DNA of 38,358 bases from Lachnospiraceae bacterium (GTDB lineage Bacteria > Bacillota > Clostridia > Lachnospirales > Lachnospiraceae), in assembly GCA_021205305.1 (NCBI GenBank), contig JAJPXU010000028.1, positions 1 to 38,358 on the forward strand, read 5' to 3'. This document shows, piece by piece, positions 4,755 to 21,631 of the stretch. The notes beneath the pieces were generated by a model, which was not told the origin of the DNA, searched no databases, and saw only the letters and a list, made by a program, of their open reading frames with translations. The translations under genes were made by a program, and so were the position numbers. Position 1 is the stretch's first letter. Each line of letters begins with the position of its first letter.

Positions 4755-4896
4755 AAGCATTCCCTCCACAATCGTTCCGAACCGTTTGCTCGTCAACACA
4801 GTACCAAAGATCCCGCCGACATTCGTTTCACGCCAACCGAAAAGCGTAAATCCAGATACAGCACAGCCGGAAAAATTCTTCTCGCGGCCCTGCGCA

Positions 4897-7441: not shown

Positions 7442-7512
7442 GAAGTCCGTCTTTCCTTTCCGCCGCCCGGTTCTTTCCACTCGCAGCCGGTATCCAAGCC
7501 CTTACGCAGATT

Positions 7513-8052
7513 TTACTCTTTATTGATAATTTTATCTACCGGAATACTAAGCACCGTAACAATCACACAATTCAGGCACGCAGTCACTACTGTGACAAGC
7601 GCCATGCTCATAAACTGCGCCATCGGCATCGGGTTCGCGTAGGTCAGCGCCGCCAGCCCCGTAAAAGCAAACCCGGAAATCAGCGTCGTGATAAACGTAT
7701 TCACCAGCGCTCTCGGCACCTTCGGCATCGGATTCGCGAGCAGCAGGCACATCGCCACCGCGCCGACCGTCTCACTGATCAGGCCAAGCCATGCCATCGA
7801 AGTCCCAATCTGGCTGATGCAGCCGGAAATAAATCCGATGATCGCCGCTTCTCTGATATTCGGCTTAATAATTAAAATAGAAAGGCAGTAAGTCGCAATC
7901 AGGAAATTCGGGTGCATATTCCCTAGCACCAGAAAGCTCGCGCACAGGCGCAGCACCACGCCAACCGCCATCATAATTCCCACCAGAATCAGGTTGTTAA
8001 TGCTCTTCAAACCCGTCTGATTATCCGTTGTAACCTGTCTTTTCTCCGCCAT
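7513..8052 (-). CDS. trpP: ECF S component, probably tryptophan-specific (TrpP-like)
   Basis: Small membrane protein (179 aa) with five or six hydrophobic helices, first gene of an S-A-A'-T operon, so it should be the substrate-binding S component. The stretch LGNMHPNFLIATYCLSILII (residues 46-65) resembles the GGMKPDFxL region of TrpP proteins. A T-box leader with a UGG specifier directly precedes it, and both facts point to tryptophan. The start is the ATG at 8052 behind AAAGGGAAATACT; upstream in-frame codons belong to the leader. A different aromatic substrate is possible, because the assignment rests on regulation and a short similarity. Confidence 0.72.
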   Translation of the reverse strand: MAEKRQVTTDNQTGLKSINNLILVGIMMAVGVVLRLCASFLVLGNMHPNFLIATYCLSILIIKPNIREAAIIGFISGCISQIGTSMAWLGLISETVGAVAMCLLLANPMPKVPRALVNTFITTLISGFAFTGLAALTYANPMPMAQFMSMALVTVVTACLNCVIVTVLSIPVDKIINKE

Positions 8053-8131
8053 AGTATTTCCCTTTCCATGCGTAAGATTCCGCCCATCCCCGCCGCACAC
8101 ACGGGGAATGGAAAATGTGCAGCATAAACTG

Positions 8132-8671: not shown

Positions 8672-9313
8672 CTACTTCGATGATCGATGCCCGGGAAACT
8701 TCATGTCCACATAAGCACAGATCAATTCCACGCATTCTTCCCGCTTCACTCGGCCAGTGTTCAATACGATATCGTAATTCGTCGGGTTCGTCCAATCCTT
8801 TCCGCGCGTATAATACCGATAATAATTCGCACGGTAACTGTCGGTCGATTTTATCAGCTTATGCGCCTTTTTCTCTGAAACATTCAGTTTTTTCATAATA
8901 GATTCTACACAGCAGGCGCGCGGCGCTTCAATATAAACACTGATGACATTAGGAAAATCAGCCAGAATATGATCCGCACATTTCCCCACAATGATGCAGG
9001 ACGTCGAAAACGCCAGCGAACGTATAATCTCAGATTCTATGTTATAAAGATTATCGTTTGAAATAAACTCTTTTTCATTCGGTTTTACCACATAATGCGT
9101 CGGAATCGTTTTAATGTTTTTTAAGATATACTTTTTTCGAAGTTTTTCATCCGACTGCATAAACAGCCCTACATCCAGGCCCGTTTGCTCGGCCGCCATT
9201 TCTATGATTTCCCGTTCATAGCATGGAATTCCCAGCGCATTGGAAAGGCGCTGTCCGATATCAAATCCGCCGCTTCCAAATCCGCGTGCTATTGTTATGA
9301 CATAATTCTTCAT
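8672..9313 (-). CDS. Cytidylate kinase-like protein (PF13189), last gene of the catabolic array
   Basis: P-loop kinase-like protein (213 aa). The N-terminal ARGFGSGGFDIGQRLSNALG (residues 9-28) is the nucleotide-binding loop of the cytidylate_kin2 family, followed by IPCYEREIIEMAA. True CMP kinase activity is not established for this family, which often sits in unrelated operons. The start at 9313 has GGGAGG upstream. It follows the nitrilase-like gene by 18 bases and is last in the long minus-strand array, so it probably shares its transcription. Its role there is unknown; phosphorylation of a pathway substrate or regulation would be guesses. Confidence 0.8.
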   Translation of the reverse strand: MKNYVITIARGFGSGGFDIGQRLSNALGIPCYEREIIEMAAEQTGLDVGLFMQSDEKLRKKYILKNIKTIPTHYVVKPNEKEFISNDNLYNIESEIIRSLAFSTSCIIVGKCADHILADFPNVISVYIEAPRACCVESIMKKLNVSEKKAHKLIKSTDSYRANYYRYYTRGKDWTNPTNYDIVLNTGRVKREECVELICAYVDMKFPGHRSSK

Positions 9314-9331
9314 TGCGGTTCGCCTCCCGTC

Positions 9332-10288
9332 TCAGGAAAATTGTTTCCAATAAGGAGTCTCCAACAGCATCTCATTCAGCTTTTTGTAGATATCCGGTCT
9401 GTAGTCCGGGCAGTTTTTAATCGGATCCACTTTAAAATTCCGTCGGGAGGCAAGCGAAAGATCTATCGCCGCAAGAAATACTCCCTCCTCCTTGTCATCG
9501 ACGTCTCCACAGTAGATATGTATTTTTTCCGCCAGTCCGGGGCCAAGAATCATACTTCCGCCGCCAAAACCGGGGCCAGTCACCATAATGTTGCTGAGGC
9601 TTCCGCCCTCGTCCTCGCTCACCATATTATTTCCTGTCAGGTTTGAGCTTGCTATGAAAATTTCACTGGCATTGACCCCCTGTTTTAATCCGCCAAGATA
9701 ATAATCTCTCCAATCATGGCGGTCACTCGGCCCGATTGCGGTGGGGTTCAGATAAAGACGGCATCCGCTCGCCGCGTAATAGCGCATAAGCTCATGGAAA
9801 TTATAAGTATCATAGCAAATACCGATACCGATCGGCCCCCATGGCGTGTCAAATGAGAACGGTTCATTCCCGCGCTCACACCAGCACTGCTCCGCCAGCG
9901 CCGGATGAATCTTTCGATAGGAGCCAATCACGCCCTCCGGACCGCACACTGCCGCTGCATTGTAAACAATATCGCTCCCTTCCTTTTCCCGTTCCGCCAT
10001 TCCAAACACCGCATAGACGCCATATTCTTTTGTCATTTCCGCGATTGCAGCTGTAGAAGGCCCCGGAATTGTCTCTGCTTCCCGAATCTGCATCTTCTGA
10101 TCCCGCTCAGTCTCACTTTCATCATCATATCCGTTCAGTGCCATTTCCGGAAAAACGATCAGATCTGCCCCCTGTTTTGCAGCCGCACGAATAAATCCTT
10201 TGATTCTTGCAAGGTTGCTCTCTTTATTTCCCCATACCTGCCGGAAATTAACAACCGCAACATTCATAATGTCCTGATATTCTCTCAT
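9332..10288 (-). CDS. Nitrilase-superfamily C-N hydrolase (amidase-like)
   Basis: Carbon-nitrogen hydrolase (318 aa) acting on an amide, nitrile or carbamoyl bond. The catalytic triad is visible: Glu48 in IVFPEMALNGY, Lys126 in GSYRKIHPAL, Cys158 in GIGICYDTYNFHE. The length fits the aliphatic amidase / N-carbamoyl hydrolase branches. The start at 10288 lies eight bases after GGGAGG; the internal ATG at 10267 is less well placed. It follows an amide-type ABC transporter by 16 bases, so it probably hydrolyses the imported amide or an acyclic amide made from it. Beta-ureidopropionase-like or omega-amidase-like activity are alternatives that sequence reading cannot settle. Confidence 0.85.
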   Translation of the reverse strand: MREYQDIMNVAVVNFRQVWGNKESNLARIKGFIRAAAKQGADLIVFPEMALNGYDDESETERDQKMQIREAETIPGPSTAAIAEMTKEYGVYAVFGMAEREKEGSDIVYNAAAVCGPEGVIGSYRKIHPALAEQCWCERGNEPFSFDTPWGPIGIGICYDTYNFHELMRYYAASGCRLYLNPTAIGPSDRHDWRDYYLGGLKQGVNASEIFIASSNLTGNNMVSEDEGGSLSNIMVTGPGFGGGSMILGPGLAEKIHIYCGDVDDKEEGVFLAAIDLSLASRRNFKVDPIKNCPDYRPDIYKKLNEMLLETPYWKQFS

Positions 10289-10304
10289 GGTAGATACCTC
10301 CCTC

Positions 10305-11003
10305 TCAAACCGTCAAATATTTTCTGATAATGTCATCCGTCAGCTCTTCCCGCTTCCCGCTGTTTACAATCTGCCCTTTTTGCATCAAAATGTAAGAGTC
10401 GCAGATTTTAAACGCGAATTTCAGATTCTGCTCGACGAGCAGAATGCCAACATTCATTTCCTCATGTATTTTATTCAGGACTCCCGCCATTTCAGAGACA
10501 ACATTCGGCTGAATTCCCTCTGTCGGCTCATCCAGCAGCAGAATTTTAGGATGCGGCATCAGCGCTCTCGCAATCGCCAGCTGCTGCTGCAGGCCGCCCG
10601 AAAGCACCCCGCCTTTCCGTATATAGTGAGTTTCCAGAGCCGGAAAATAAGCCAGAACCTCTTCTATCCTGTCTTTTACCACATTTGTGGGCAGCTGAAT
10701 TCCTCCGATTTCCAGATTCTCCCGCACCGTAAAATCCGGAATAATCTCCCGCCCCTGCGGCACATAGGCAATTCCCATACTGGACCGTTCATAGCTGTCA
10801 CACTTTGCCAGGGATTCTTCCTCGAAAAGCAGCGTTCCCTGTGCAGGCGGCAGTATTCCAATGATGCTCTTCAGCAAGGTTGTCTTTCCCACACCATTAC
10901 GGCCAAGAAGCGCCACTTTTTCCGTCGTCTCCATGGAAAAATCCACTCCGTTGATCACCCGGCTTTTACCATAACTAACATGTAGATTTTTCAGCTCCAG
11001 CAT
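10305..11003 (-). CDS. Urea/short-chain-amide type ABC transporter ATPase (UrtE/LivF-like)
   Basis: Second ATPase (232 aa) of a five-gene branched-chain/urea-family importer. Walker A is GRNGVGKTT at about residues 34-42; the Arg-Asn-Gly-Val form is typical of UrtE. The signature region is VLSGGLQQQLAIARAL, with a Leu where most members have Gln, and Walker B is ILLLDEPTEGIQ. It begins two bases after the upstream ATPase gene and is followed by the C-N hydrolase. It is tightly packed with the other urt-like genes and clearly belongs with them. Confidence 0.88.
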   Translation of the reverse strand: MLELKNLHVSYGKSRVINGVDFSMETTEKVALLGRNGVGKTTLLKSIIGILPPAQGTLLFEEESLAKCDSYERSSMGIAYVPQGREIIPDFTVRENLEIGGIQLPTNVVKDRIEEVLAYFPALETHYIRKGGVLSGGLQQQLAIARALMPHPKILLLDEPTEGIQPNVVSEMAGVLNKIHEEMNVGILLVEQNLKFAFKICDSYILMQKGQIVNSGKREELTDDIIRKYLTV

Positions 11004-11005
11004 GG

Positions 11006-11764
11006 CTATGCCTCCTCTTCCTGCTTCAGATATACCTGAACGACCTTCGGATTATTTTCGACCTCTTCAAAAGTTCCTTCCGCCAGTACCTTCCCATGAT
11101 GAAGGACCGTCACCGTCTCCGCGATCTGGCGGACAAAATCCATATCATGTTCAATGACCAGAACGGTTTTATCTGCCAGATTCTTCTTGATCATTTCCCC
11201 GGTTTTATAGGTCTCCTCCGCAGTCATGCCCGCGGTAGGTTCATCCAGAACGACCAGCTGCGCATCCTGCAAAATCACCATACCGATCTCCAGCCACTGC
11301 TTCTGTCCGTGAGAGAGGGATGCCGCGCGAATCCCTTCATATTCCAGCAGATTTACTGCCTCCAGAGCACGCCGGATTCTGTTCTCTTCCTCCGACGTAT
11401 TTTTCTGAAACAGACATTGAAAAAAACTTTTTCCTCCCATCAGAGCCAGCTTCATATTTTCCTGTACCGTCAATTCCCCAAACACATTTGGTCCCTGGAA
11501 TTTTCTCCCTACACAATAATTCCGGCAAATATGCGAGGTCGATTTCCCGATCAGCTGGTGTCCGTTAAATTCAATCGTTCCCGACGTAGCCTTCGTCTTT
11601 CCCGTAATCAAATCCAAAAGTGTCGTCTTTCCGGCCCCGTTTGGCCCGATAATTACGCGGGTTTCACCGTTTTTTACGGCCAGGTTTACATGGTCAACCG
11701 CTACAAACGTGCCAAATTGCACGCACAGTTCTTTAATCAGCAGGAAATAATCTTCACCCATCAT
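11006..11764 (-). CDS. Urea/short-chain-amide type ABC transporter ATPase (UrtD/LivG-like)
   Basis: First ATPase (252 aa) of the importer. ETRVIIGPNGAGKTTLLDLI (residues 33-52) and the later GRKFQGPNVFGELTVQEN are hallmarks of UrtD rather than LivG. The signature is SLSHGQKQWLEIGM, also the UrtD form, and Walker B is LVVLDEPTAGMT. The ATG overlaps the stop of the permease gene before it (11761-11764), so translation is coupled. Together with the binding protein this supports a urea, formamide or short-chain amide transporter rather than one for branched-chain amino acids. Confidence 0.9.
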   Translation of the reverse strand: MMGEDYFLLIKELCVQFGTFVAVDHVNLAVKNGETRVIIGPNGAGKTTLLDLITGKTKATSGTIEFNGHQLIGKSTSHICRNYCVGRKFQGPNVFGELTVQENMKLALMGGKSFFQCLFQKNTSEEENRIRRALEAVNLLEYEGIRAASLSHGQKQWLEIGMVILQDAQLVVLDEPTAGMTAEETYKTGEMIKKNLADKTVLVIEHDMDFVRQIAETVTVLHHGKVLAEGTFEEVENNPKVVQVYLKQEEEA

Positions 11765-12837
11765 TTCTCACCACCTTCTGAAGCGTTTAGTCTCTGATTC
11801 TGTTCTTTGGAAATCCTCCGATTGTATAGAAACGAATCCAATTGACCAATGATTCCTTTCGGAATAAAGAACACCACCAGAAGAATCAATATGCCGTAAA
11901 TAATATACCAGTAATCCGTCAGCTGTTCCGAAAGCAGACTCTCCGCCCAACATAAAACCAGCGTTCCCACAGTAGCTCCTGTCAGGTTTCCGCGCCCGCC
12001 AAGTGCCAGCCAGACAATCACAGCGGTTGACGCCGATATCCCCACATTCGATGGGCCGATAAACGATTGTGAAGTAGCAAACATGATTCCTGACAATCCG
12101 GCAATCACAGCGGATATGATAAAAATGATAATCTTAAATCTGGTCACATCATAGCCAAAGAAGTCCAGACGGCTCTCATTTTCACGAATTGCTTCCAGGA
12201 TAAGGCCAAAACGGCTCCCTGTTAAAAACCGGCAGAACAGGTATACCAGAATTGTGATTCCAAGCAATACATAATAATACGCGCCCTGCGGGATAACAAT
12301 ATCAAAGATCAGCTTACGCGGAATATTGGTAATTCCATTCGCGCCTCCTGTGTAACGCTGCTGGTTATTGATCAGCAGCTGGAATACTCTTGCAAGCGCA
12401 AATGTAATCAGGGAAAAATAGACACTGTTTACTTTTTTCGAGAACAGAAAAGCTGCCAGAATCCCTGCCACAACGCCGCAGGCCAGAAGCGCCCCAAAAA
12501 AGGCTACCGGTTTATTCGCCAGAAAATAATACAATTTCGGTGCTTCCATATACCCCAGGCTTGTCATATAAGAAAGAACGCCATTCTCCATCGAATAGCC
12601 AATTGCAAGCACATAGGCTCCGATTCCAAAAAACACCGCATGCCCCATACTCATCAGTCCGACATAGCCCCAAATCAGGTCCAGTGAATACGCAAAGACG
12701 ATGTAGCAGAGACATTTCGCCATAATCTGCCGGCGAAAAACATTTACAAACAAAGGAAACAGAGCAAGGAATACGAAAACAATAATATCTATATAAGTCA
12801 GTACAGAAACATCTGCCAATTTCTTTTTGGGTTTCAT
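11761..12837 (-). CDS. Urea/amide type ABC transporter permease (UrtC/LivM-like)
   Basis: Permease (358 aa) with about ten hydrophobic segments; the LivM/UrtC fold shows in YSLDLIWGYVGLMSMGHAVF near residue 50 and the coupling stretch GLILEAIRENESRLDFFGYD near 210. The second permease lies directly upstream with a three-base gap, and the ATPase gene overlaps its end by four bases. It forms the heterodimeric channel with the UrtB-like protein. Specificity follows the binding protein. Confidence 0.88.
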   Translation of the reverse strand: MKPKKKLADVSVLTYIDIIVFVFLALFPLFVNVFRRQIMAKCLCYIVFAYSLDLIWGYVGLMSMGHAVFFGIGAYVLAIGYSMENGVLSYMTSLGYMEAPKLYYFLANKPVAFFGALLACGVVAGILAAFLFSKKVNSVYFSLITFALARVFQLLINNQQRYTGGANGITNIPRKLIFDIVIPQGAYYYVLLGITILVYLFCRFLTGSRFGLILEAIRENESRLDFFGYDVTRFKIIIFIISAVIAGLSGIMFATSQSFIGPSNVGISASTAVIVWLALGGRGNLTGATVGTLVLCWAESLLSEQLTDYWYIIYGILILLVVFFIPKGIIGQLDSFLYNRRISKEQNQRLNASEGGEK

Positions 12838-12840
12838 ACT

Positions 12841-13695
12841 CTACCTCCTTTCTTTCACAATGATGCCTCTTGGGAAAAAGCGGACAATAATGACCACTGC
12901 AAACACAACAATCATCTCGGCAAATACGCTGTCAATAAATCCTCCTACGACGGATTCACTTTCGCCAATCAGAAGCGCCCCGACTACAGGTCCAAACAGG
13001 GTATCTACACCGCCCAGAACCACTGTAATAAAGGAATCCGTTATATAGTTGGAACCAGCGAAAGGAGAAATGGAGTTAATCGGGGCAATCATACAGCCCG
13101 CCAGGCCGGTAAGCCCGGCTCCATACGCAAATGTCAGCGTATCAATCCGCTTGGTATTGACTCCCAGGCAGGCAGCCATCGCCCGGTTCTGACTGACGGC
13201 ACGAATCTGCAGGCCAAGTCTGGTTTTGTTGAACAAAAGCCATGTTACAAGAAACATGAGAACCGCAACCGCAATGATGCACAGATAATATTTCGGCATA
13301 ATTGTTTTTCCCAATCGTACAATACCGGTAATCGGTGATTCCAGATGGATATATCCGGAACCGTAAATTAATTTCAGAAGCTGCTGAAAAATCATGGACA
13401 AAGCATATGTCACCAGAAGCGTTTCCGCTGTTTTCCCATACAGCTTCTTGATGATAATTTTTTCAATCAGGCTGCCAATCACAGCCGTCGTAGCAAAGGA
13501 GGCAAGAACCGCCGCTCCAAAAGGAAGCCCAAGGATCTCAATCATGGTATAGGATGCGTAAGCGCCAATGATTATCAATTCCCCGTGCGCCAGATTAACG
13601 ACATTCATAATTCCAAATATAATCGCCATGCCCATAGACATCATCAATAATGACGCGGCTGTCATCAATCCATTGATCAAATATGTAAGCAGCAT
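12841..13695 (-). CDS. Urea/amide type ABC transporter permease (UrtB/LivH-like)
   Basis: Permease (284 aa) with about eight hydrophobic segments. MSMGMAIIFGIMNVVNLAHG (residues 19-38) is the conserved N-terminal motif of LivH/UrtB, and LGLQIRAVSQNRAMAACLGV near 160 is the cytoplasmic coupling loop. The length matches UrtB without its extra periplasmic domain. It follows the binding-protein gene by 27 bases. Confidence 0.88.
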   Translation of the reverse strand: MLLTYLINGLMTAASLLMMSMGMAIIFGIMNVVNLAHGELIIIGAYASYTMIEILGLPFGAAVLASFATTAVIGSLIEKIIIKKLYGKTAETLLVTYALSMIFQQLLKLIYGSGYIHLESPITGIVRLGKTIMPKYYLCIIAVAVLMFLVTWLLFNKTRLGLQIRAVSQNRAMAACLGVNTKRIDTLTFAYGAGLTGLAGCMIAPINSISPFAGSNYITDSFITVVLGGVDTLFGPVVGALLIGESESVVGGFIDSVFAEMIVVFAVVIIVRFFPRGIIVKERR

Positions 13696-13722
13696 ATCCC
13701 TGCCTCCTTCCGCTGTTTCCGT

Positions 13723-14925
13723 TTATGATTCGGATTCTGTATAATACGCTTCACCCGCATAAGGATCCGGGCTTACCGGCTCCTCAGCTTCATAAATCAC
13801 GTCAAACAGCCCCTCCGAATTTACAACACCGATTCTCGGCGTCACAGTACAATGGTTGTTTTCCTCCACTGTCACAAAGCCCGCCGGCCCGTCGAAAGTC
13901 GTCCCCTGTAAAGCAGCCACCAGTTCTTCTGTTGTGAATTCATCCGAAAGCCCTTCCAGCGCCTGCGCCAGCAGATTTGCCGCTACATATCCATTGCTTG
14001 CGTAAACCGTCGGAACCGTTCCGTAGAGCTCCTCATACTTTGCAGCAAACACCTCGTTCACTTCGTTTTCCACGGTAGCAAAGTAGGTCTGGCCGGAGTA
14101 AACGCCCTCACAGCTGTTTACACCAATTGCCTCTACGCCGGACTCGTCCAGGCACAAATGGAACATTTCAATGTTGTCAATTCCATACTGTGCGTACTGT
14201 TTCTGGAAAGCGGTAATGCAGTCGCCCACCAATACGGAAAAGACTACATCCGGCTCCGCGTTTATGATTTTTGTAATAGAGGATGTGTAGTCGGTTTCAT
14301 CCATAGCCACATATTCCTCTCCCACAATCTCCGCACCATTTTCTTCCAGCATGGCACTCATCTGTGCCAGCGTAGAACGCGGATACAGATAATCATTTCC
14401 GATCAGGTATACCTTCTGACCGATATTTTCCGTCAGGTATGGAGCAATCGTCTGGATCTGCTGATTCGGCACGCACCCGACATAAATAATGTTATCTGAC
14501 TGTTCCAGGCCCTCATAGTCTGTCGTATAAATCAGAAGGTTATCATATTCTTCTACAACCGGAAGCACTGCCTGACGGCAAGAGGACAATACAACGCCGA
14601 CAATGCAGGACACTCCGTCATTGACAATCAGCTTTTCTGCTTTCTCAGCAGCGGTGGCCGGATCAGAAGCGTAATCCTCGCGGAAAATCTCGATCTCCTT
14701 TCCATTGATTCCGCCAGCCTCATTTATCTCGTCAACAGCCATCATCACTGCGTTCGCGATATAGCCATCCAAAACAGAGGTTGATCCGCTGGAAGCGGCC
14801 AGAAGCCCCACTTTGATCGTTTCCTCACTCTCCGCCGCGGCGGTAAGGCCAAATCCGGACAGTGCCATCGCGACAGTTCCTGCCGCAGATCCTTTTAAGA
14901 ATTCTCTTCTTGTTAATTTTTTCAT
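13723..14925 (-). CDS. Urea/short-chain-amide type ABC substrate-binding protein (UrtA/FmdD-like)
   Basis: Extracytoplasmic receptor (400 aa) of the importer. Family-specific segments include LLIYTTDYEGLEQSDNIIYV, then VGCVPNQQ, then GNDYLYPRS and DETDYTSSITKI; all are recognisable from urea and short-chain-amide receptors rather than leucine/isoleucine receptors. The N-terminus LTRREFLKGSAAG has a twin-arginine look, and where a lipobox cysteine would be expected the sequence is ALSGFG. Cleavage after AAA before ESEE is likely. The start at 14925 follows AAAGGAGG. It comes 21 bases after the alcohol dehydrogenase gene. There is no urease in the window, so an amide other than urea is more likely, perhaps the substrate of the C-N hydrolase at 9332. 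Confidence 0.85.
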   Translation of the reverse strand: MKKLTRREFLKGSAAGTVAMALSGFGLTAAAESEETIKVGLLAASSGSTSVLDGYIANAVMMAVDEINEAGGINGKEIEIFREDYASDPATAAEKAEKLIVNDGVSCIVGVVLSSCRQAVLPVVEEYDNLLIYTTDYEGLEQSDNIIYVGCVPNQQIQTIAPYLTENIGQKVYLIGNDYLYPRSTLAQMSAMLEENGAEIVGEEYVAMDETDYTSSITKIINAEPDVVFSVLVGDCITAFQKQYAQYGIDNIEMFHLCLDESGVEAIGVNSCEGVYSGQTYFATVENEVNEVFAAKYEELYGTVPTVYASNGYVAANLLAQALEGLSDEFTTEELVAALQGTTFDGPAGFVTVEENNHCTVTPRIGVVNSEGLFDVIYEAEEPVSPDPYAGEAYYTESES

Positions 14926-14946
14926 AATGCTTTTCCTCCTTTACCT

Positions 14947-15987
14947 TTACGGTTCAATTGCAAACTTGATTACGTGTTCCTTTTTATGTTCAAAGATGTC
15001 ATAGGCATCCATTATATTTTCGAGCTTCGCGTGATGCGTGATCAGGTACTCTGTATGAATCTTTCCGGCCTCAATCAGCTTTAAGATATCATCACATTTC
15101 GACGCATCCACTCCGCCGGTCTTAAAGGTAAGATTCTTTCCGTACATATCCGGAAGCGGAATCACCTGCGGTTCCTCGTACAGCGCCACTACGCAGACAA
15201 TCGCGTTCGGCCGGGCCACTTTCCAGGCAAGTTCAAAGGTGTTTTTCCCTCCGGCCACTTCAAAAACGACATCCGCGCCTCTCCCTTCCGTCAGTGAGCG
15301 GATTGCCATCTCCACGTCTGTTGTCAGCGGGTTCAGGCCAACATCCGCGATCCCCTGTTTCAGCGCCAGCTCCAGCCTGCTTTCATCGGTATCCACCACA
15401 ACTACTTTCCCCGGCCCATAAAGCTTGACACACTCCAGGGTACACATTCCGGTTGGCCCCGCTCCCAAGACCACCACGGTATCTGCCGGATGAATTTCGC
15501 CGATGGATGCCGCCCAGTATCCGGTCGATAAAATGTCTCCCGTAAAAAGCGCGGCTTCATTCGTAACCGCATCCGGAATTTTGGTGAGCCCGTTATCCGC
15601 AAAAGGAACTCTCACATATTCCGCCTGGCCTCCATCGATGCGGCACCCCAGCGCCCATCCGCCATGCTTATGCGTACAGTTGTTGACAAAACCTCTTTTG
15701 CAGAAAAAACATTCCCCGCAAAAAGTCTCAACATTCACCGCAACCCGATCTCCGGATTTAAACTTTTTCACACCGGCTCCCACTTCACAAACCTGGCCAA
15801 CAAATTCATGTCCTACAATAATTCCCGGCACCGCTCTCGGCACCGCTCCGTGTTTAATGTGAATATCGCTGGAACAAATCGAAGCCAGGGTCACTTTCAC
15901 AATCGCGTCAGTACTCTCAACCAGATCCGGTTCCGGCCGATCTTCCAGACGAAAATCATTCACTCCATGGTAAACAACTGCTTTCAT
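14947..15987 (-). CDS. Zinc-dependent medium-chain alcohol dehydrogenase
   Basis: Oxidoreductase (346 aa) of the sorbitol/threonine dehydrogenase type. Catalytic zinc ligands are Cys38 (SICSSDIH) and His60-Glu61 (VGHEF). Four structural-zinc cysteines are at 90, 93, 96 and 104. A Rossmann motif VVLGAGPTGMCTLE lies near 170, and VVVDTDESR ending in an acidic residue suggests NAD preference. The start is the ATG at 15987 behind AAAGGAGGAAAAA; the open frame extends further upstream only through the GC-rich repeat. It heads the second transcription unit of the array. It probably interconverts an alcohol and an aldehyde or ketone of the pathway; the exact substrate is unknown. Confidence 0.85.
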   Translation of the reverse strand: MKAVVYHGVNDFRLEDRPEPDLVESTDAIVKVTLASICSSDIHIKHGAVPRAVPGIIVGHEFVGQVCEVGAGVKKFKSGDRVAVNVETFCGECFFCKRGFVNNCTHKHGGWALGCRIDGGQAEYVRVPFADNGLTKIPDAVTNEAALFTGDILSTGYWAASIGEIHPADTVVVLGAGPTGMCTLECVKLYGPGKVVVVDTDESRLELALKQGIADVGLNPLTTDVEMAIRSLTEGRGADVVFEVAGGKNTFELAWKVARPNAIVCVVALYEEPQVIPLPDMYGKNLTFKTGGVDASKCDDILKLIEAGKIHTEYLITHHAKLENIMDAYDIFEHKKEHVIKFAIEP

Positions 15988-16009
15988 TTTTTCCTCCTTT
16001 CGCGGCCCT

Positions 16010-16105
16010 GCGATCTGGTAGAAGACAGCTCGTCGGCTCCTATCCGCCCGCGCGGGCCCCGGGTGCGGCATAAGCCGCAAAACACCTTGTGCAGCCCTGC
16101 GCATA
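16010..16105 (-). repeat. GC-rich structured repeat, copy 1 (ADH leader)
   Basis: On the minus strand this starts ATGCGCAGGGC directly after a U-tailed hairpin and runs about 95 nt. It contains a TGCGGC/GCCGCA hairpin, a GGGC/GCCC pairing region and a GGAGCCGAC segment. The same module in the same relation to a hairpin occurs at 31886-31972. It lies entirely in the untranslated leader of the alcohol dehydrogenase gene. Confidence 0.65.
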
Positions 16106-16151
16106 AAAAGAAACAGGGCGAAAAATTCTTTCGACTTCTTCGTCCTGTTTC
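16103..16151 (-). terminator. U-tailed hairpin between the anion permease and ADH genes
   Basis: Minus-strand stem GAAACAGGACGAA with TTCGCCCTGTTTC (16151-16139 with 16122-16110), one G-T pair, then CTTTTTATG. It should end transcription from the hgd-ena-DASS genes. It also falls about five bases after the predicted start of the promoter at 16163-16191, so for the second unit it would act as an attenuator or a 5'-protecting hairpin. Confidence 0.75.
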
Positions 16152-16162
16152 AAACATACGGG

Positions 16163-16191
16163 ATAATAACACCGTTTGTTTTTCTTGTAAA
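16163..16191 (-). promoter_or_regulatory. Second promoter of the catabolic array (ADH-urt unit)
   Basis: Minus-strand -35 TTTACA (16191-16186), 17-base spacer, -10 TATTAT (16168-16163). It sits between the stop of the anion permease gene and the hairpin above. It would transcribe the alcohol dehydrogenase, the five urt-like genes, the C-N hydrolase and the kinase-like gene. Confidence 0.55.
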
Positions 16192-16231
16192 ATATTTTTT
16201 TTAGATACAACCATCTTGTTTTTAAATATCT

Positions 16232-17638
16232 CTATCTCAGACCAATCCCCGGCCAATACCAAAATGCGCAGGCTATGTAAACCACGCAGGCAATCACGGA
16301 AATGGGAAGCCCAACTTTCAAAAAATCCGCTGCCTTCAGCTTTTTGGTGTCATAACATAAAATATTGGGCGTAGTATTGAAAAACGTCAATACCGGATAC
16401 CCGCCAATCATAAAGGCCGCCGGCATAATCAGAGCCTCCGTCTCCATATCCAGCTGAAGCGCCAGGCTTACCAGGATCGGAAAGAACGCATTCGCCATAG
16501 GGGCAGTCCCGACAAAGAAAAGATGCATAAACTGAATAATCACAATTACCGCAGCAATCATTACAGGACCTGTCACATTTTCCCCGATTATCCCCAATAC
16601 CTGCGAAGCCAGCCAGTCAGAGGCACCCGTCACAGACATGGCATTCCCCAGACTGATTCCGCCGCTGATCACAAACAGGACGCTGACCGAAATACTATCC
16701 TGGCAGTCTTTCCATTCCAGGACACGCACGCCCGGAAAGAAAAGCAATACGGCGCCTAACAGCGCAGCGGTTGCGCTGTCAATCCCCATCTTATCCCCGA
16801 AAATCCACAGGAAAATCGTTATTCCGATGATGAACACCGTATAGCGCTCTTTTCCTGAAATTTTCCCAAGCTGTGCCATCTGCTGACGTATCACCTGTAT
16901 TCCCATCTCATTCTGGCTCTCACGCGGCCGGAAACAGATCTGTATCATAAGCCATGCTGCAATAGTCATAATGAGAGCAGGTAAAAACCCCCAGAGCATC
17001 CACTGGAAATAACTGATCTCTTTCCCGGAAGCGTTATAAATATAACTGACGGCCATCGGATTACTTACCGTTGACGTCATGATTCCAGAGCTGATCGTTG
17101 AGGATGTGACGCATAAGGTCAGCAGAAGATTTTCCGCGTATTTACATTTGTCCTCTTCTGCCCCCTCATATTGTTCCACCAGCGCCATCACAAACGGCAG
17201 AAGCATCGCGGTTCTTGCTGTAGAGGACGGAATCATAAAAGCCATGACAATATTTACCATTACAATTCCCAAAGAAATCCTCAGCACGCCCGAACCCACC
17301 CGCGTCAAAAGAAAGCCTGTGATTCTGCCGCCAAGACCGGTCTTTGTCATAGCGGCCGCCAATATATACGAACCCGCTACCAGGTAGGTAGACGTAGAGG
17401 AAAACCCGCCAAGCGCCGTATTCACATCCGTGATTTTCAAAAGCACCAGCGCCGGTACAATCGCAATACTGATCACAGCCGCCGGCATCGCTTCTGTTAT
17501 GTAAACAACAAATACCGCAGCAAACAGGGCAAGGCACCATCTTCCTGCCCGACTAAGTTCTGTCATTCCCGAGGCACATAAAATCACAAGGAATAACAGC
17601 ACTGACAGAATAAGTCCCACATTCTCTTTTCGCTTCAC
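16232..17638 (-). CDS. DASS-family (SLC13-like) anion/dicarboxylate permease
   Basis: Membrane transporter (468 aa) with about 11-13 hydrophobic segments. The paired substrate-loop motifs of the divalent-anion:Na+ symporter family are visible: GGFSSTSTYLVAG near residue 80 and MIPSSTARTAMLLP near 135 in the first half, and VGTAPMANAFFPILVS with GYPVLTFFNTTPN in the second. Such proteins move di- and tricarboxylates. The gene follows the AA_synth gene by 17 bases within the hgd-ena unit, so exchange of a glutarate-type dicarboxylate made by that pathway is a sensible inference. The signature is diverged enough that a monocarboxylate or other anion cannot be excluded. Confidence 0.8.
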   Translation of the reverse strand: MKRKENVGLILSVLLFLVILCASGMTELSRAGRWCLALFAAVFVVYITEAMPAAVISIAIVPALVLLKITDVNTALGGFSSTSTYLVAGSYILAAAMTKTGLGGRITGFLLTRVGSGVLRISLGIVMVNIVMAFMIPSSTARTAMLLPFVMALVEQYEGAEEDKCKYAENLLLTLCVTSSTISSGIMTSTVSNPMAVSYIYNASGKEISYFQWMLWGFLPALIMTIAAWLMIQICFRPRESQNEMGIQVIRQQMAQLGKISGKERYTVFIIGITIFLWIFGDKMGIDSATAALLGAVLLFFPGVRVLEWKDCQDSISVSVLFVISGGISLGNAMSVTGASDWLASQVLGIIGENVTGPVMIAAVIVIIQFMHLFFVGTAPMANAFFPILVSLALQLDMETEALIMPAAFMIGGYPVLTFFNTTPNILCYDTKKLKAADFLKVGLPISVIACVVYIACAFWYWPGIGLR

Positions 17639-17655
17639 CAGACTGTACCCGCTGG

Positions 17656-18240
17656 CTATCTCAGGCCATCCTCTCCTTTAATCTGGTCAACGGTCAGTCC
17701 GCCAATGCGGGCATGCGGACGTCCCCCATCTGTAAATGCCAGCGCGACCACGATTTCGTCTGCTTTCGGGGCATCCGGAATCCGCACTTCCATCGCGTCA
17801 TAATGTGTCCGCACAAAAGCCGCGTCCTTGTAGTGCAGGGGCACATCCAGGCTGGTACCCGCAGACCCGCATTTTTTGGCGGAGGGAATAATCGCTTTTC
17901 CGCCTCCGATTGCCGCACGCATCGGCGCACCGAGCTTCGGATGAAGAATGGCGCCTCCATGTTCTAATTCTCCGGCTTCCCCTATAATCGCACCTTTTCC
18001 GTAACTGTTCACCTGATCCTCGCCAAGAATTCCCGCCGCGATATTCGTCAGATATCCGCCCAGATATTCTCCATATTCTGTGAGTTCAGATAAATCTTCC
18101 ACATATTTCCCAGCGAAAGGGTTTTTAATCACAGCTGCCACACTGCATTTTTTCAGCGGCTTCTCCAGAGGCGCAAACCCTTCATAATAAATTTCTTCCA
18201 CATTCGTTACAATTTTTCTGATTTCCGGTTTCAATGCCAT
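17656..18240 (-). CDS. DUF1185 / AA_synth (PF06684) family protein
   Basis: Soluble protein (194 aa), full length for the family named amino acid synthesis although no reaction is firmly known to me. Conserved segments: NPFAGKYVEDLSEL (40-53), NSYGKGAIIGEAGELEHG (78-95), LHPKLGAPMRAAIGGGKAII (99-118), PSAKKCG (119-125), DGGRPHARIGGLT (171-183). The Ser79/Lys82 and Ser120/Lys122 pairs are striking. Start at 18240 behind AGGAGG, eight-base spacing. Placed between enamidase and the anion permease, it is likely a pathway enzyme, perhaps on a cyclic amide or unstable intermediate; that role is inference only. Confidence 0.8.
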   Translation of the reverse strand: MALKPEIRKIVTNVEEIYYEGFAPLEKPLKKCSVAAVIKNPFAGKYVEDLSELTEYGEYLGGYLTNIAAGILGEDQVNSYGKGAIIGEAGELEHGGAILHPKLGAPMRAAIGGGKAIIPSAKKCGSAGTSLDVPLHYKDAAFVRTHYDAMEVRIPDAPKADEIVVALAFTDGGRPHARIGGLTVDQIKGEDGLR

Positions 18241-18317
18241 CCTCTTATTCCTCCTGATTTTAAACTTTCATGCCCGCTTCACGGACACTGTCAAGTCGAT
18301 TGCACCGTGTTTTGCAC

Positions 18318-19487
18318 TCAGCAGATCACTGCCTGTGTTTTTGCCGGGGGCGTATTTTTACTCTTTCCAACCACAACTTCACCGTTAATAAGCACTTTGC
18401 TGATGCCCGGAATATCTCCGCAGCGTATCGCCTCCAGCGCATTTGCTCCAACACTGCCCATCGGCGCGTCCATAAGAACAATATCCGCTTCCCTGCCCAC
18501 AGCGAGAATTCCTGTGTTCAGGCCATATGTCCTGGCGGTATTCCCAGTCGCCATACAGATCGCCTGCTCCGGTGCAATATCCGAAACAGATGCCGCAAAA
18601 CAGATATTCCGAATGATACCCAAAGGAATAATCCCGGTACCGCTGGGCGCGTCATTGCCAAATATGATTCGGTCGAGCATCTTTTTTTCACTGGCTCTTC
18701 TCAGACAATAGTCCATCATTTTAAAATTCCCGCACTGCACCAGTTCAAGCGCAAATTCCGTTTCATCCATAATCCGGTCTACTTCCTGCTTTGAAACGCT
18801 TGTTGGTCCGCCATTCAGATGCGAAACCACATCCGGCTTTGTTTTGATTACGTCTTCCGCTGTAACGGTTGAAGATCCCGGTATGGATGTGCCGCCCGTA
18901 TGCATCTGCACTTTAAATCCATACTTATGCGCCCACGCCGTCATCACTGAAGCTTCCTTGGGATCTTTCACGCTTCCCAACCCGATTTCTCCTACAATCC
19001 ACACGCCCTGTGACTGCAGATACGCAAAATCTGCTTCACACAGCCCTTTTTCAAGAATCAGGGCTCCGCCATGCACTTTTACGGACGACGGCGGATTTTT
19101 TGCGAATGATTTCGCGCAAAGCACAGCCATCGCCTTTACACCTTCCGGATCCGTCGGCCTCCCCGGCATATGCGCTTCTCCTGCGGAAATCACAGACGTA
19201 ACGCCTCCATGAAGTTCCGACGCAATAAATCCGTCTGCTTTCTGCCGATGACCATAATCCCCAATCGTGACATGCACATGCGAATCAAAAAATCCCGGGG
19301 CAGCCGTAATCCCTTTCGCGTCAATGACACAGGTACTGTCATCTCCGGCTTTATCTTTCACCGTTTCCCACTGCCCGATTGCTGCAATCATTCCATCTTC
19401 AATCAGAATCGCATCCGCGTCACTGACAGGATTTGAACTATCCCCTGTCAAAAACGTCCCGATATTTTTTATAATTACCTGTTTCAT
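18318..19487 (-). CDS. ena: Enamidase-like amidohydrolase
   Basis: Metal-dependent amidohydrolase (389 aa). Compared from memory it is very close over its whole length to Eubacterium barkeri enamidase, which hydrolyses 1,4,5,6-tetrahydro-6-oxonicotinate to 2-formylglutarate and ammonia in nicotinate fermentation. Shared blocks include FKVQMHTGGTSIPGSSTVTA and IIFGNDAPSGTG. Metal-site residues are His70 and His72 (DSHVHV), Glu167 (GEIGLG), His196, His223 and Asp279, as expected for a binuclear site bridged by Glu. The start is the ATG at 19487 behind AGGAAGGGG; eight more residues upstream lack a site. An hgd-like gene lies 27 bases upstream, as the next pathway step would predict. Action on another cyclic enamide is possible because the early nicotinate genes are missing. 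Confidence 0.87.
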   Translation of the reverse strand: MKQVIIKNIGTFLTGDSSNPVSDADAILIEDGMIAAIGQWETVKDKAGDDSTCVIDAKGITAAPGFFDSHVHVTIGDYGHRQKADGFIASELHGGVTSVISAGEAHMPGRPTDPEGVKAMAVLCAKSFAKNPPSSVKVHGGALILEKGLCEADFAYLQSQGVWIVGEIGLGSVKDPKEASVMTAWAHKYGFKVQMHTGGTSIPGSSTVTAEDVIKTKPDVVSHLNGGPTSVSKQEVDRIMDETEFALELVQCGNFKMMDYCLRRASEKKMLDRIIFGNDAPSGTGIIPLGIIRNICFAASVSDIAPEQAICMATGNTARTYGLNTGILAVGREADIVLMDAPMGSVGANALEAIRCGDIPGISKVLINGEVVVGKSKNTPPAKTQAVIC

Positions 19488-19514
19488 AATATCCCCTTCC
19501 TGAAAAATCACTGA

Positions 19515-20402
19515 TTATGAAAGCTCCCCAAACCCCGCAAGGTTTTCCCATACCTTGATGACAGAAGAAATGTCTTTGTCTCCAAGCCCCATACGCTGAG
19601 CCGTTGTATACACCTGCAGCGCCGCCGTTGTCACCGGCAGCGGCATCGCTTTCTTTTCCGATGCTTTGACCGCTAAATTCATATCTTTTCTGGCGAGACT
19701 TAACGCAAATCCGCCGTCATAAGTATCCTGTCCGATAAAGCTGTCAACCTTTGCCTCAAAAGCGTAACTGTTTCCTGAGCTTTGACAGATGACTTCCTTC
19801 ATCACATCCAATGTGAGGCCAAGCTGCCTTCCTAATGTAATGGCTTCCGCAATCGCGGCTACATTACACCCCAGCAGCAAATTATTTACGATCTTTACCG
19901 CATCCCCATTTCCGACGGAACCCGTGTAGATGATCTTCTTGCCAATCTGGCTTAACAAGGGCTTTACGCGGTCAAACACTTCTCGTTTTCCGCCAAACAT
20001 CATTGTAAGGGATGCCTCCCGGGCGCCTCGTACACCGCCGCTGACCGGGACGTCGGCATAGTCAATTCCTCTTTTTTCTGCCTCCCTGCTCAGGTCTCTT
20101 GACGTTTCAGGATCAACACTGCTCAGGTCGAGGACACAGGCCCCTTCCATGCATTTTCCCAAAACTCCGTCCTTTCCCAGCATCACCTCCCGTACAATCG
20201 CCGGATTCGGCAAAGACGTTACAACAACCTGGCACTTCTCCACGGCATCCGCTATAAGGCTGCAGCTCAATCCGCCGCTTTCTGCAAAAAGAATCCTCCG
20301 TTTTTCTGAGACATCAAAACCTTTTACTTCATTTCCGGCCTGTATCAGATTTTGTGCGATCGGAAGTCCCATAGCGCCAAGCCCAATGATCCCTATTTTC
20401 AA
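19515..20402 (-). CDS. hgd: 2-(Hydroxymethyl)glutarate dehydrogenase-like (beta-hydroxyacid dehydrogenase family)
   Basis: NAD(P)-dependent reductase (295 aa) of the 3-hydroxyisobutyrate dehydrogenase family. It has GIIGLGAMGLPIA (residues 4-16), DLSSVDP (92-98), the substrate loop VPVSGGVRGA (118-127) and catalytic Lys170 in NGDAVKIVNNLLLGCN. The segments NNLLLGCN, SSGNSYAFEAK and MGLGDKDISSVIKVWE match E. barkeri Hgd, which reduces 2-formylglutarate to 2-(hydroxymethyl)glutarate. I chose a TTG start at 20402, eight bases after GGGAGG, where homology begins; an ATG start would need 30 unrelated residues. The gene is first in its operon and divergent from the LysR gene. Tartronate or malonate semialdehyde reductase activity is an alternative typical of the family. 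Confidence 0.82.
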   Translation of the reverse strand: MKIGIIGLGAMGLPIAQNLIQAGNEVKGFDVSEKRRILFAESGGLSCSLIADAVEKCQVVVTSLPNPAIVREVMLGKDGVLGKCMEGACVLDLSSVDPETSRDLSREAEKRGIDYADVPVSGGVRGAREASLTMMFGGKREVFDRVKPLLSQIGKKIIYTGSVGNGDAVKIVNNLLLGCNVAAIAEAITLGRQLGLTLDVMKEVICQSSGNSYAFEAKVDSFIGQDTYDGGFALSLARKDMNLAVKASEKKAMPLPVTTAALQVYTTAQRMGLGDKDISSVIKVWENLAGFGELS

Positions 20403-20494
20403 ACAGCATTCCTCCCTCCAGTAAATTTCCACATCGAAACATGCGCTTACCGTTATCCAAATGGCTGCCGCACAGCCTTGCGGTCGGCGCAAAA

Positions 20495-20539
20495 GAAAAG
20501 AGCAATACGATTCGCTTTGCGAACGTCTTTGCTCTTTTC
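20495..20539 (-). promoter_or_regulatory. Leader hairpin (attenuator-like) of the hgd operon
   Basis: Perfect 11-bp stem GAAAAGAGCAA/TTGCTCTTTTC (20495-20505 with 20529-20539) with an inner TTCGC/GCGAA stem. On the minus strand it is followed by TTTTGCG, and it starts at the predicted transcription start. It could act as an early terminator or as a 5' stabilising hairpin. The GC-rich sequence after it (GCGCCGACCGCAAGG) can form a further hairpin with TGCGG. Confidence 0.6.
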
Positions 20540-20574
20540 ACGCAAATCATAAATCATTTTCTGATTTGCGTAAA
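20540..20574 (-). promoter_or_regulatory. hgd promoter embedded in a perfect inverted repeat (LysR-box candidate)
   Basis: ACGCAAATCA (20540-20549) and TGATTTGCGT (20562-20571) form a perfect 10-bp inverted repeat with a 12-base spacer, of the T-N11-A type bound by LysR regulators. A minus-strand promoter with -35 TTTACG (20574-20569), 17-base spacer and -10 TATGAT (20551-20546) overlaps it. Binding here by the LysR protein encoded at 20687 could repress, or reposition on effector binding. Confidence 0.6.
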
Positions 20575-20625
20575 ATACTTTTTTTCTATTTTTATATACA
20601 ATTTCTAAATATCGCGCATTCCGGC

Positions 20626-20653
20626 TTGCTTTTTTTTCGATTTATTTTATAAT
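20626..20653 (+). promoter_or_regulatory. Promoter of the LysR gene
   Basis: -35 TTGCTT (20626-20631), 16-base spacer, -10 TATAAT (20648-20653). It stands 33 bases before the ATG at 20687, which has GAGGAG upstream. The divergent hgd promoter and the inverted repeat lie about 55-85 bases away, so the regulator could control both directions. Confidence 0.7.
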
Positions 20654-20686
20654 TTACCTGACTTTTATTCAGAGGAGATTTCGGCT

Positions 20687-21586
20687 ATGACGCTCAAACA
20701 ATTAACTTATTTTTTGAAAATATCAGAAACGGGAAATCTGACAAAGGCTGCTCAAATGCTGCATATGTCCCAGCCTCCGCTGAGTTATCAGTTAAAGCTG
20801 CTCGAAGAAGAACTCGGAGTCGAACTTTTCGTCCGGGAAGCCCATAATATGCGAATCACTACAGAAGGCTCATACCTGGTAGACAGGGCAAACCAGATTT
20901 TAGCTTTGGTTAATAAGACGGAAACCGAAATCCGACAGCTCTCAAGCAGCGCAGAAATTTATATTAATATTGGAACGGTCAGCAGCGCCAATCATTACCT
21001 GCTTCCTCAGATTGTTGATACTTTTAAAAAACGATACCCGAAAACGATCTTCAACATTTACGATGGAAACAGTTATCGAATCATGGAACTTCTAAACAAC
21101 CATGTGATAGACCTTGGTATCTTACGCGAGCCTTTCAACCGTGAATTATATGATTGTATGAAAATCAATAACACACCCGTTCTTCCGCACGACGAAACGG
21201 GAGATTTTTTTGTTGCCGCCGGCCGTCCGGTTTTTTTCCCTGATCCGTCGCTTGGCGAAATATCTTTAAAAGAAGCCGTCCGCATGCCGCTTATTGTCCA
21301 CCGAAGATATGATGAATTGTTCATGCATCAATGCGAAAAAGACAACTTAAAGCCAAATGTCATTTGTCTGAATGACAATATTATCACTTCCATCGAATGG
21401 GTGCTGAATGGCGTGGGCGTTGGTATCATGCCCTATACCTCCTCCCTTCTTTTGCGGAACCCTGATATTGTCGTTCAAAAAATCACGCCTGCTTTTTATT
21501 CAAATCTTTTCCTGGTTTGGAACAGCGGGGCTAAATTTTCAAAACCACTCATGCAGTTTATCGAATTATTCAATTCTGTCTCTTGA
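20687..21586 (+). CDS. LysR-family transcriptional regulator of the catabolic array
   Basis: LysR regulator (299 aa). The N-terminal winged helix-turn-helix is clear at residues 1-60, with NLTKAAQMLHMSQPPLSYQL as the recognition region. The remainder is the effector-binding domain of periplasmic-binding-like fold, opening at INIGTVSSANHYLLPQIVDTF and containing GVGVGIMPYTSSLL near 245. It is transcribed away from the hgd-ena genes across a 284-base region with a perfect inverted repeat; this is the classic arrangement for a pathway-specific LysR regulator. The effector is presumably a pathway intermediate. Confidence 0.9.
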   Translation: MTLKQLTYFLKISETGNLTKAAQMLHMSQPPLSYQLKLLEEELGVELFVREAHNMRITTEGSYLVDRANQILALVNKTETEIRQLSSSAEIYINIGTVSSANHYLLPQIVDTFKKRYPKTIFNIYDGNSYRIMELLNNHVIDLGILREPFNRELYDCMKINNTPVLPHDETGDFFVAAGRPVFFPDPSLGEISLKEAVRMPLIVHRRYDELFMHQCEKDNLKPNVICLNDNIITSIEWVLNGVGVGIMPYTSSLLLRNPDIVVQKITPAFYSNLFLVWNSGAKFSKPLMQFIELFNSVS

Positions 21587-21631
21587 ATACTACAGGCAAT
21601 GCCAGCCATCCGCCAAAAGGAGAAACCTGAA

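Follow-up and report, generated by a model that had tools for sequence, protein, structure and literature searches.

How can a bacterial gene cluster carry the middle of the nicotinate fermentation pathway and neither its beginning nor its end? This fermentation is generally described as a single long route requiring molybdenum, 6-hydroxynicotinate reductase, and B12, and in Eubacterium barkeri its enamidase converts 6-oxo-1,4,5,6-tetrahydronicotinate (THON) to (S)-2-formylglutarate and ammonium. The question is raised by a stretch of 38,358 nt from a Lachnospiraceae bacterium (assembly GCA_021205305.1, contig JAJPXU010000028.1), all of which was analyzed and is called the window here, with 12 genes on its minus strand from 8672 to ~20402. 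In order of transcription, these encode a 2-(hydroxymethyl)glutarate dehydrogenase-like protein (hgd), a putative enamidase (ena), AA_synth (PF06684), a DASS-family carrier, a zinc-dependent alcohol dehydrogenase (ADH), an UrtA-E-like ATP-binding cassette (ABC) importer, a C-N hydrolase, and a PF13189 protein. All 12 frames are open, and the frames together with family matches bore out the number, strand, order, and divergence from a LysR gene described in an original prediction made from the DNA alone.

A recurring variant of the nicotinate cluster

We compared the window with 30 enamidase loci gathered by one contig scan for two short peptides shared with the query; the own-genome copies (L001 and L002) were excluded from the neighborhood tables. 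Rows above the length floor in the trees numbered 31 for Ena, 26 plus two outgroups for Hgd, 27 for AA_synth, 8 for DASS, and 13 for LysR. Examining conservation of gene order, as the original prediction had proposed, we found the full layout in two of the 30 loci. In L003, from a Clostridium sp. metagenome-assembled genome (MAG), the 12 genes have an identical order, with an extra nitroreductase gene between LysR and hgd, and the GNAT and malic enzyme neighbors of the window were not found there. L004, from an uncultured member of the Eubacteriales, contains the same genes in another order (ADH, UrtA-E, C-N hydrolase, PF13189, DASS, ena, AA_synth, and hgd); its LysR gene comes last and is convergent. 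The longest open reading frames (ORFs) of the PF13189 and DASS genes abut in L004, and therefore one transcript is likely there. Compared with both of these loci, the window showed identities of 69 to 81% for the module proteins and 50 to 59% for DASS. The LysR proteins of the three module-bearing loci formed one clade with a support of 100 in a quick tree that carried a long-branch warning elsewhere. Because L003 and L004 carry the same 12 genes, and because those genomes and that of the window lack the early and late steps, the 12-gene set is more than a chance assembly: it represents a variant form of nicotinate catabolism that recurs, with another front end and a truncated back end.

The missing steps were sought genome-wide. 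MoCoBD_1, the domain marking Mo nicotinate dehydrogenase, had no match in the window, L003, or L004 genomes and was present in 6 of 11 genomes searched. Full-length 6-hydroxynicotinate reductase (Hnr) was also not found in the three genomes; those of the window and L003 gave ferredoxin-like partial matches of 50 to 55 residues (55 in the window genome), and that of L004 gave no match. Among the 11 ena-bearing genomes searched, hnr, full-length or split, was absent only from the three with the module. Neither the B12-dependent 2-methyleneglutarate mutase (Mgm) nor an Hmd-like dehydratase matched in the window, L003, or L004 genomes, and the same searches returned full-length matches in the L013, L015, and L017 genomes. 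The lack of Mo nicotinate dehydrogenase, Hnr, and the B12 steps claimed for the locus thus holds across all three genomes. We found no second, classical cluster in the window genome, which has a single ena and a single PF14833 match, Hgd itself; the 391 other genomes of the order contained no ena at an E value of 1e-60. Nicotinamide or nicotinate as the direct substrate was judged unlikely given that neither a Mo hydroxylase nor a full-length Hnr was found in the three genomes.

The pairing of ena with DASS extends to seven of the 30 loci. Genes resembling Mgm, Hmd, Mii, Dml, or DmdA were present in none of these seven versus 15 of the 23 others, in counts that include several short contigs and ignore relatedness. 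Among the seven DASS genomes, full-length Mgm and Hmd occurred only in that of L013, which has two clusters on separate contigs: one with DASS and no late genes, the other complete and lacking DASS. Mgm searches of the L005 and L014 genomes returned B12-binding-domain matches alone, and the L008 genome gave one weak partial dehydratase match. The proposal that DASS moves the hydroxy-dicarboxylate was therefore strengthened in one part, the occurrence of DASS in place of the late steps. DASS appears to stand in for those steps, and most simply it would export or exchange 2-(hydroxymethyl)glutarate.

Other enamidase loci differ in their surroundings. L005, L006, and L022 contain hnr and an ABC gene set (with a PF02608 Bmp protein shown in L006) and no ndh genes; genome searches for MoCoBD_1 found none for L005 and L006 and one for L022. 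This arrangement suggests a further front end, starting from 6-hydroxynicotinate or a nucleoside. In L008, a 3H-domain helix-turn-helix protein, presumably of the NiaR type, is encoded at 3994-4506 between the ABC genes and the DASS, ndh, and ena genes.

Enamidase, Hgd, and AA_synth

The window Ena is identical to E. barkeri enamidase (2VUN) at 250 of 388 residues (64%), and the PDB matches that follow are dihydroorotases at E values of ~1e-6. Residues H78, H80, D287, E175, H204, and H231 are all identical to the aligned 2VUN positions, which we take to be the Fe/Zn ligands His67, His69, Asp276, Glu164, His193, and His220. Restricting the count to columns with residues in 70% or more of the other rows (28 for Ena, 24 for AA_synth, and 23 for Hgd), we identified 139 columns invariant in the other enamidases, of which the window retains 131, L003 134, and L004 139. 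Identity of the window Ena to those of L003 and L004 was 68 to 73%. In a tree of 31 enamidases, the window Ena was sister to that of L003 (100/98) and near those of L005 and L006, and L004 paired with L008 (98/93); a single clade for the three module-bearing enamidases was not rejected (approximately unbiased test, p 0.054), leaving one origin compatible with the data. The identity, the six ligand-position residues, and a placement among enamidases, in a tree that contained no outside amidohydrolase as outgroup, indicate by sequence that the window ena product is a true enamidase, as had been predicted.

For hgd, we placed the start at an internal TTG, since the alignment with 3CKY opens at residues 29 to 31 of the longest ORF. 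3CKY was the best PDB match (135 of 290 residues identical, or 47%; 275 bits versus 201 for the next), and the protein retains DAVKIVNNLLLG, presumably the catalytic Lys motif. Of 71 Hgd columns invariant in the others, the window kept 63 and L003 and L004 each kept 68, with the window protein only 51 to 55% identical to its counterparts in those two loci. The window hgd product is thus a probable 2-(hydroxymethyl)glutarate dehydrogenase. The predicted identity stood as to the closest solved relative and the Lys motif; the clade check was equivocal, as the two HIBADH outgroups of a quick tree with long branches failed to group together, one of them falling beside L005 and L006.

AA_synth proved to belong to the same core. 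In the E. barkeri cluster (L015), the PF06684 gene directly follows ena, and such a gene was present in 26 of the 30 enamidase loci, with the contig ending at or soon after ena in the other four (L006, L008, L021, and L032). The two genomes searched among these four, those of L006 and L008, each have one PF06684 gene elsewhere. Genome-wide, 10 of 11 ena-bearing genomes contained one copy, and the L013 genome contained two, one with its DASS cluster (C126) and one with its complete cluster (C32). PF06684 was not found in seven further genomes of the order without an ena match, chosen as at hand, nor in any of 14 control genomes. AA_synth is therefore a standard nicotinate-cluster gene that tracks ena genome by genome and forms part of a conserved core with it. 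A foreign insertion was ruled out by the position of the gene directly after ena in E. barkeri and by its presence in 26 of 30 loci.

At the residue level, the window retains 68, L003 69, and L004 68 of 69 AA_synth columns invariant in the 24 others, and nine aligned proteins all retain E91, E93, H94, H100, H146, R174, H176, and R178. From the alignment, we tentatively equate these eight with the conserved near-cavity residues given in the available part of the BB2672 description. The available parts of the literature include HcdD of the coumarin pathway and TgnF of the trigonelline pathway as PF06684 relatives and report that HcdD had no observable stimulating effect. A single-clade test for the three module-bearing AA_synth proteins gave p 0.11. 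For PF06684, a family of which structures have been solved and for which no assigned reaction was seen, these loci provide a specific context that can be put to the test.

Nearly all family-invariant positions are kept in Ena, AA_synth, and Hgd, and nothing demonstrates a change of substrate in Ena or Hgd, although both have long branches in the window. The likely entry point would therefore be the ordinary intermediate THON, with the novelty lying upstream, and the original claim that Ena and Hgd process a different heterocycle found no support.

Import, upstream enzymes, and control elements

The UrtB-, UrtD-, and UrtE-like proteins scored above the NCBIfam urea cut-offs, whereas UrtA (297 bits against 493) and UrtC (264 against 296) scored below theirs. 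According to the available part of the Prochlorococcus UrtA description, urea is hydrogen bonded by S122, Q144, Y190, and N246, with W120 also in the pocket. Taking 8HIC as this protein, as its motifs fit the numbering in that text, and reading the alignment by eye, we found S, D, Y, and V in the window binding protein at the four hydrogen-bonding positions and V in place of W120; AmiC likewise has V at the N246 position. Urea as the imported ligand was ruled out by the replaced pocket residues together with the UrtA and UrtC scores. The pocket favors an amide-type ligand over urea, in keeping with the amide-type import system originally proposed.

The C-N hydrolase retains E48, K126, and C158, which we assume to be catalytic. 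The ADH starts at or near M40, as in both relatives, and the extra residues of its longer ORF are spurious. Its C77, H99, E100, and D190, which we regard as zinc-ligand candidates, the four further cysteines C129, C132, C135, and C143, the GAGPTG motif, and the acidic D238 that follows it are all conserved in L003 and L004; D238 suggests NAD as the cofactor. Relatives of the C-N hydrolase were found in 15 of 392 genomes of the order and 1 of 398 of the phylum, relatives of the ADH in 46 of 392 order genomes, and relatives of UrtA in 2 of 358, with the own genome included in each count. Neighborhoods were retrieved for 14 of the 15 other sites with a C-N hydrolase and for 18 of the 45 with an ADH. 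These searches for the module apart from ena revealed little about its substrate. Two C-N hydrolase relatives, L077 and L080, have Urt-like genes nearby, and L080 has glutamine synthetase as well. Separately, three relatives (L074 to L076; 44 to 52% identity) share alike neighborhoods, which in L074 comprise genes for an HpaB-type dehydratase, a thiolase, EutH, and an SDR protein, perhaps a lactam or aminobutyrate route.

Similar control elements precede both halves of the cluster. RTATTTTAC, a spacer of 16 to 19 nt, and TATNAT or a close form, followed by a stable hairpin, occur before hgd and ADH in the window (20380-20700 and 15960-16240) and in L003 (8300-8760 and 13310-13640) and before ADH in L004 (820-1110), with hairpin z scores from -2.9 to -8.5. 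The pattern had these five matches and no others on both strands of 65 sources (1.07 Mb) and none in mononucleotide shuffles. The hgd and ADH halves thus appear to share control signals.

The leaders are possibly sites of ANTAR-type attenuation. In the available part of its description, the ANTAR target consists of a pair of mini-hairpins, each bearing an A1..G4 hexaloop, and the second of them overlaps a terminator. A loop resembling that of the second hairpin (P2) was present in four of the five leaders (that of the window ADH leader starts with G by eye), in a nonspecific scan that gave 73 matches in 47 sources; no first mini-hairpin of the P1 type was seen by eye in the leaders, and an Rfam search of them yielded no credible family match. 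The scanned window proteins included no ANTAR regulator; no genome-wide search for one was made. In L080, from a genome of the same family as that of the window, similar hairpins occur just ahead of a gene for a UrtA-like protein, at 8731 (-), and where a C-N hydrolase ORF starts, at 8921 (+), with glutamine synthetase nearby.

Table 1. Genes and control elements of the cluster in the window
Feature	Position	Strand	Basis
hgd, 2-(hydroxymethyl)glutarate dehydrogenase-like	19515..20402	-	TTG start near 20402; best PDB match 3CKY
ena, enamidase (by sequence)	18318..19511	-	start probably M9, ~19487; 64% identity to 2VUN
AA_synth, companion of ena	17656..18240	-	PF06684/DUF1185
DASS-family dicarboxylate/anion carrier	16232..17638	-	TIGR00785, 263 bits vs cut-off 198.6
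Zn-dependent, probably NAD-dependent ADH	14947..15987	-	conserved residues; start ~15987; cofactor suggested by D238
UrtA/AmiC-like amide-binding protein, Tat-type signal	13723..14925	-	family profiles, pocket alignment
UrtB-like permease	12841..13695	-	NCBIfam urea profile, above cut-off
UrtC-like permease	11761..12837	-	below equivalog cut-off
UrtD-like ATPase	11006..11764	-	NCBIfam urea profile, above cut-off
UrtE-like ATPase	10305..11003	-	NCBIfam urea profile, above cut-off
C-N hydrolase (nitrilase superfamily)	9332..10288	-	E48/K126/C158 retained
PF13189 cytidylate-kinase-like protein	8672..9313	-	GSGGFDIG at site where canonical P-loop lysine expected
LysR regulator	20687..21586	+	43% identical to LysR of E. 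barkeri cluster
Promoter-like element GTATTTTAC-N18-TATGAT, upstream of hgd	20546..20578	-	pattern search
Leader hairpin, T-rich tail, before hgd, attenuator-like	20491..20539	-	z -5.0
Promoter-like element ATATTTTAC-N18-TATTAT, upstream of ADH	16163..16195	-	pattern search
Leader hairpin, T-run, before ADH, attenuator-like	16105..16151	-	z -5.7

Just downstream of the cluster, window positions 3483-8100 contain a LarAH10-like gene (a nickel-pincer nucleotide [NPN]-dependent 2-hydroxyacid racemase; 436 bits versus a cut-off of 540) adjoining energy-coupling factor (ECF) transporter genes (a CbiQ-like T component and two ATPases) and a gene for a 195-residue membrane-like protein; the LarA cofactor is derived from nicotinate. 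On the other side lie a GNAT acetyltransferase gene like ArsN1b/phosphinothricin acetyltransferase, below cut-off (21599-22186), and a gene for a 1,477-residue FtsX-type permease with a long coiled-coil-like region, adjoining a LolD-like ATPase gene (23713-28146).

The proposed route, its alternatives, and known systems

We propose that the window holds a co-regulated catabolic cluster that joins the E. barkeri nicotinate pathway midway and leaves it early, amide-fed and DASS-drained, a proposal whose chances we consider even. The UrtABCDE/AmiC-like importer would take up a carboxamide, the C-N hydrolase would strip the amide nitrogen, and the NAD-type ADH would oxidize, with THON as the joint product, so that these two enzymes would take over from Mo nicotinate dehydrogenase and 6-hydroxynicotinate reductase. 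By homology, enamidase, assisted by AA_synth, would open THON to 2-formylglutarate and ammonium, and Hgd would reduce 2-formylglutarate to 2-(hydroxymethyl)glutarate, which DASS may then export or exchange, since the cluster has no dehydratase, B12 mutase, or enzymes for the steps beyond. This route would yield nitrogen with no need for a Mo hydroxylase, a 6-hydroxynicotinate reductase, or a B12 mutase, and NADH made by ADH would balance that used by Hgd.

A more specific form of this proposal, which we hold to be improbable in its particulars, is a route for damaged or reduced nicotinamide, such as 6-hydroxy-1,4,5,6-tetrahydronicotinamide from NAD(P)H hydrates. Conversion of 6-hydroxy-tetrahydronicotinamide to THON would require one amide hydrolysis and one NAD-linked oxidation: the C-N hydrolase would remove the carboxamide, the ADH would oxidize the 6-hydroxy group to the lactam, and Ena and Hgd would carry THON on to 2-(hydroxymethyl)glutarate, so that NADH would be neither gained nor lost overall. 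A RidA-like role, resolving the enamine intermediate 2-(aminomethylene)glutarate, might then fall to PF06684, which presumably shares a chorismate-mutase-like fold with RidA.

Several observations weigh against the amide-fed, DASS-drained cluster. The closest C-N hydrolase relative (67% identity; genome G153, locus L073) has no Urt, ADH, or ena neighbors, adjoining instead a sigma-factor gene and, at a greater distance, one for a sodium:alanine symporter, and ADH relatives of 49 to 72% identity occur in 45 of 391 other genomes of the order, in mixed contexts in the 18 inspected. The activities of both enzymes could thus be unrelated to THON, and the imported substrate and the two reactions are inferences. 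The window branches are long for Ena (0.53 versus a median of 0.053) and Hgd (1.27 versus 0.083), which could represent drift or a shifted substrate. The set of 30 loci is not exhaustive, and since the scan demanded one of the two query peptides, it guaranteed that a few of the invariant columns would be shared. The window genome is 90.9% complete, a figure that covers that genome only. Finally, the promoter pattern was built from the very five sites that it then matched, and promoter-like sites are in excess across the region (34 versus 18.6 in shuffles).

In a possible but doubtful alternative, two neighboring units are biochemically separate. One would live on THON released by other microbes and convert it to 2-(hydroxymethyl)glutarate, the other would import and hydrolyze short-chain amides for nitrogen, and the two would be kept together since both release ammonium. 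The occurrence of C-N hydrolase and ADH relatives elsewhere without ena would fit, as would the separate promoter-like elements of the hgd and ADH units in the window and the annotation of tetrahydro-oxonicotinic acid in fecal or meconium metabolomics, in the available part of that work. This alternative has to contend with the linkage of the same 12 genes in three genomes and two arrangements, the promoter-like element and leader hairpins common to both units, the abutting ORFs in L004, and the absence of full-length or split hnr from only the three module-bearing genomes among the 11 searched.

The long window branches of Ena and Hgd would also agree with two accounts that we rate lower still. 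Retuning of Ena, AA_synth, and Hgd to another lactam or enamide, giving a product other than 2-formylglutarate, would further suit the unfamiliar upstream genes and the mere 47% identity of the window Hgd to 3CKY, but it sits poorly with the retention of nearly all family-invariant positions (139 of 139 in the L004 Ena) and of H78, H80, E175, H204, H231, and D287 as in 2VUN, and we consider it unlikely. A decaying nicotinate cluster into which unrelated genes had moved on the downstream side would explain the missing steps as well; however, all 12 frames are open, conserved residues are kept, and the L003 order is identical without the GNAT and malic enzyme neighbors of the window, making a remnant very unlikely.

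Together, the loci suggest that nicotinate catabolism is modular, with a conserved core of ena, AA_synth, and hgd, front ends of differing kinds, and drainage by either the B12 branch or, putatively, DASS. If the amide-fed version is true, nicotinamide-like compounds could serve bacteria as a nitrogen source even where the classical cofactor enzymes are missing. No combination of ena with an amide importer was found among the literature matches listed.

Relative to the E. barkeri cluster (strain VPI 5359), the window has LysR, hgd, ena, and AA_synth in common, with AA_synth after ena in both. It lacks ndhFSLM, hnr/ApbE-like, PTS_EIIC, Hmd-like, mgm, mii, MutL, dml, and dmdAB genes beside ena and has instead DASS, ADH, UrtA-E, C-N hydrolase, and PF13189. 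Five other loci, from an Anaerocolumna MAG (L005), Hespellia stercorisuis (L008), the L013 genome, Pelosinus propionicus (L014), and a Paenibacillaceae MAG (L022), resemble the window in combining ena with DASS at a locus without Mgm or Hmd, and all but L008 also have hgd, AA_synth, and LysR. Unlike the window, all five contain hnr, and ndh genes are present in L008, L013 (NdhF-like only, at a contig end), and L014. Their transport genes are not UrtA-E-like, with MFS carriers in L014 and Bmp-like ABC neighbors in L005, L008, and L022 (shown by Pfam only in the related L006). The UrtABCDE urea transporter matches the window importer in gene order and family and differs in the equivalog cut-offs that UrtA and UrtC fall below and in the replaced urea pocket residues. 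Finally, as far as the available part of its description extends, the Pseudomonas aeruginosa AmiC/AmiR amidase operon shares with the window an AmiC-like amide-binding protein, an amide hydrolase, and a terminator-like leader, whereas the AmiC-like protein of the window belongs to an ABC importer and bears a Tat-type signal.

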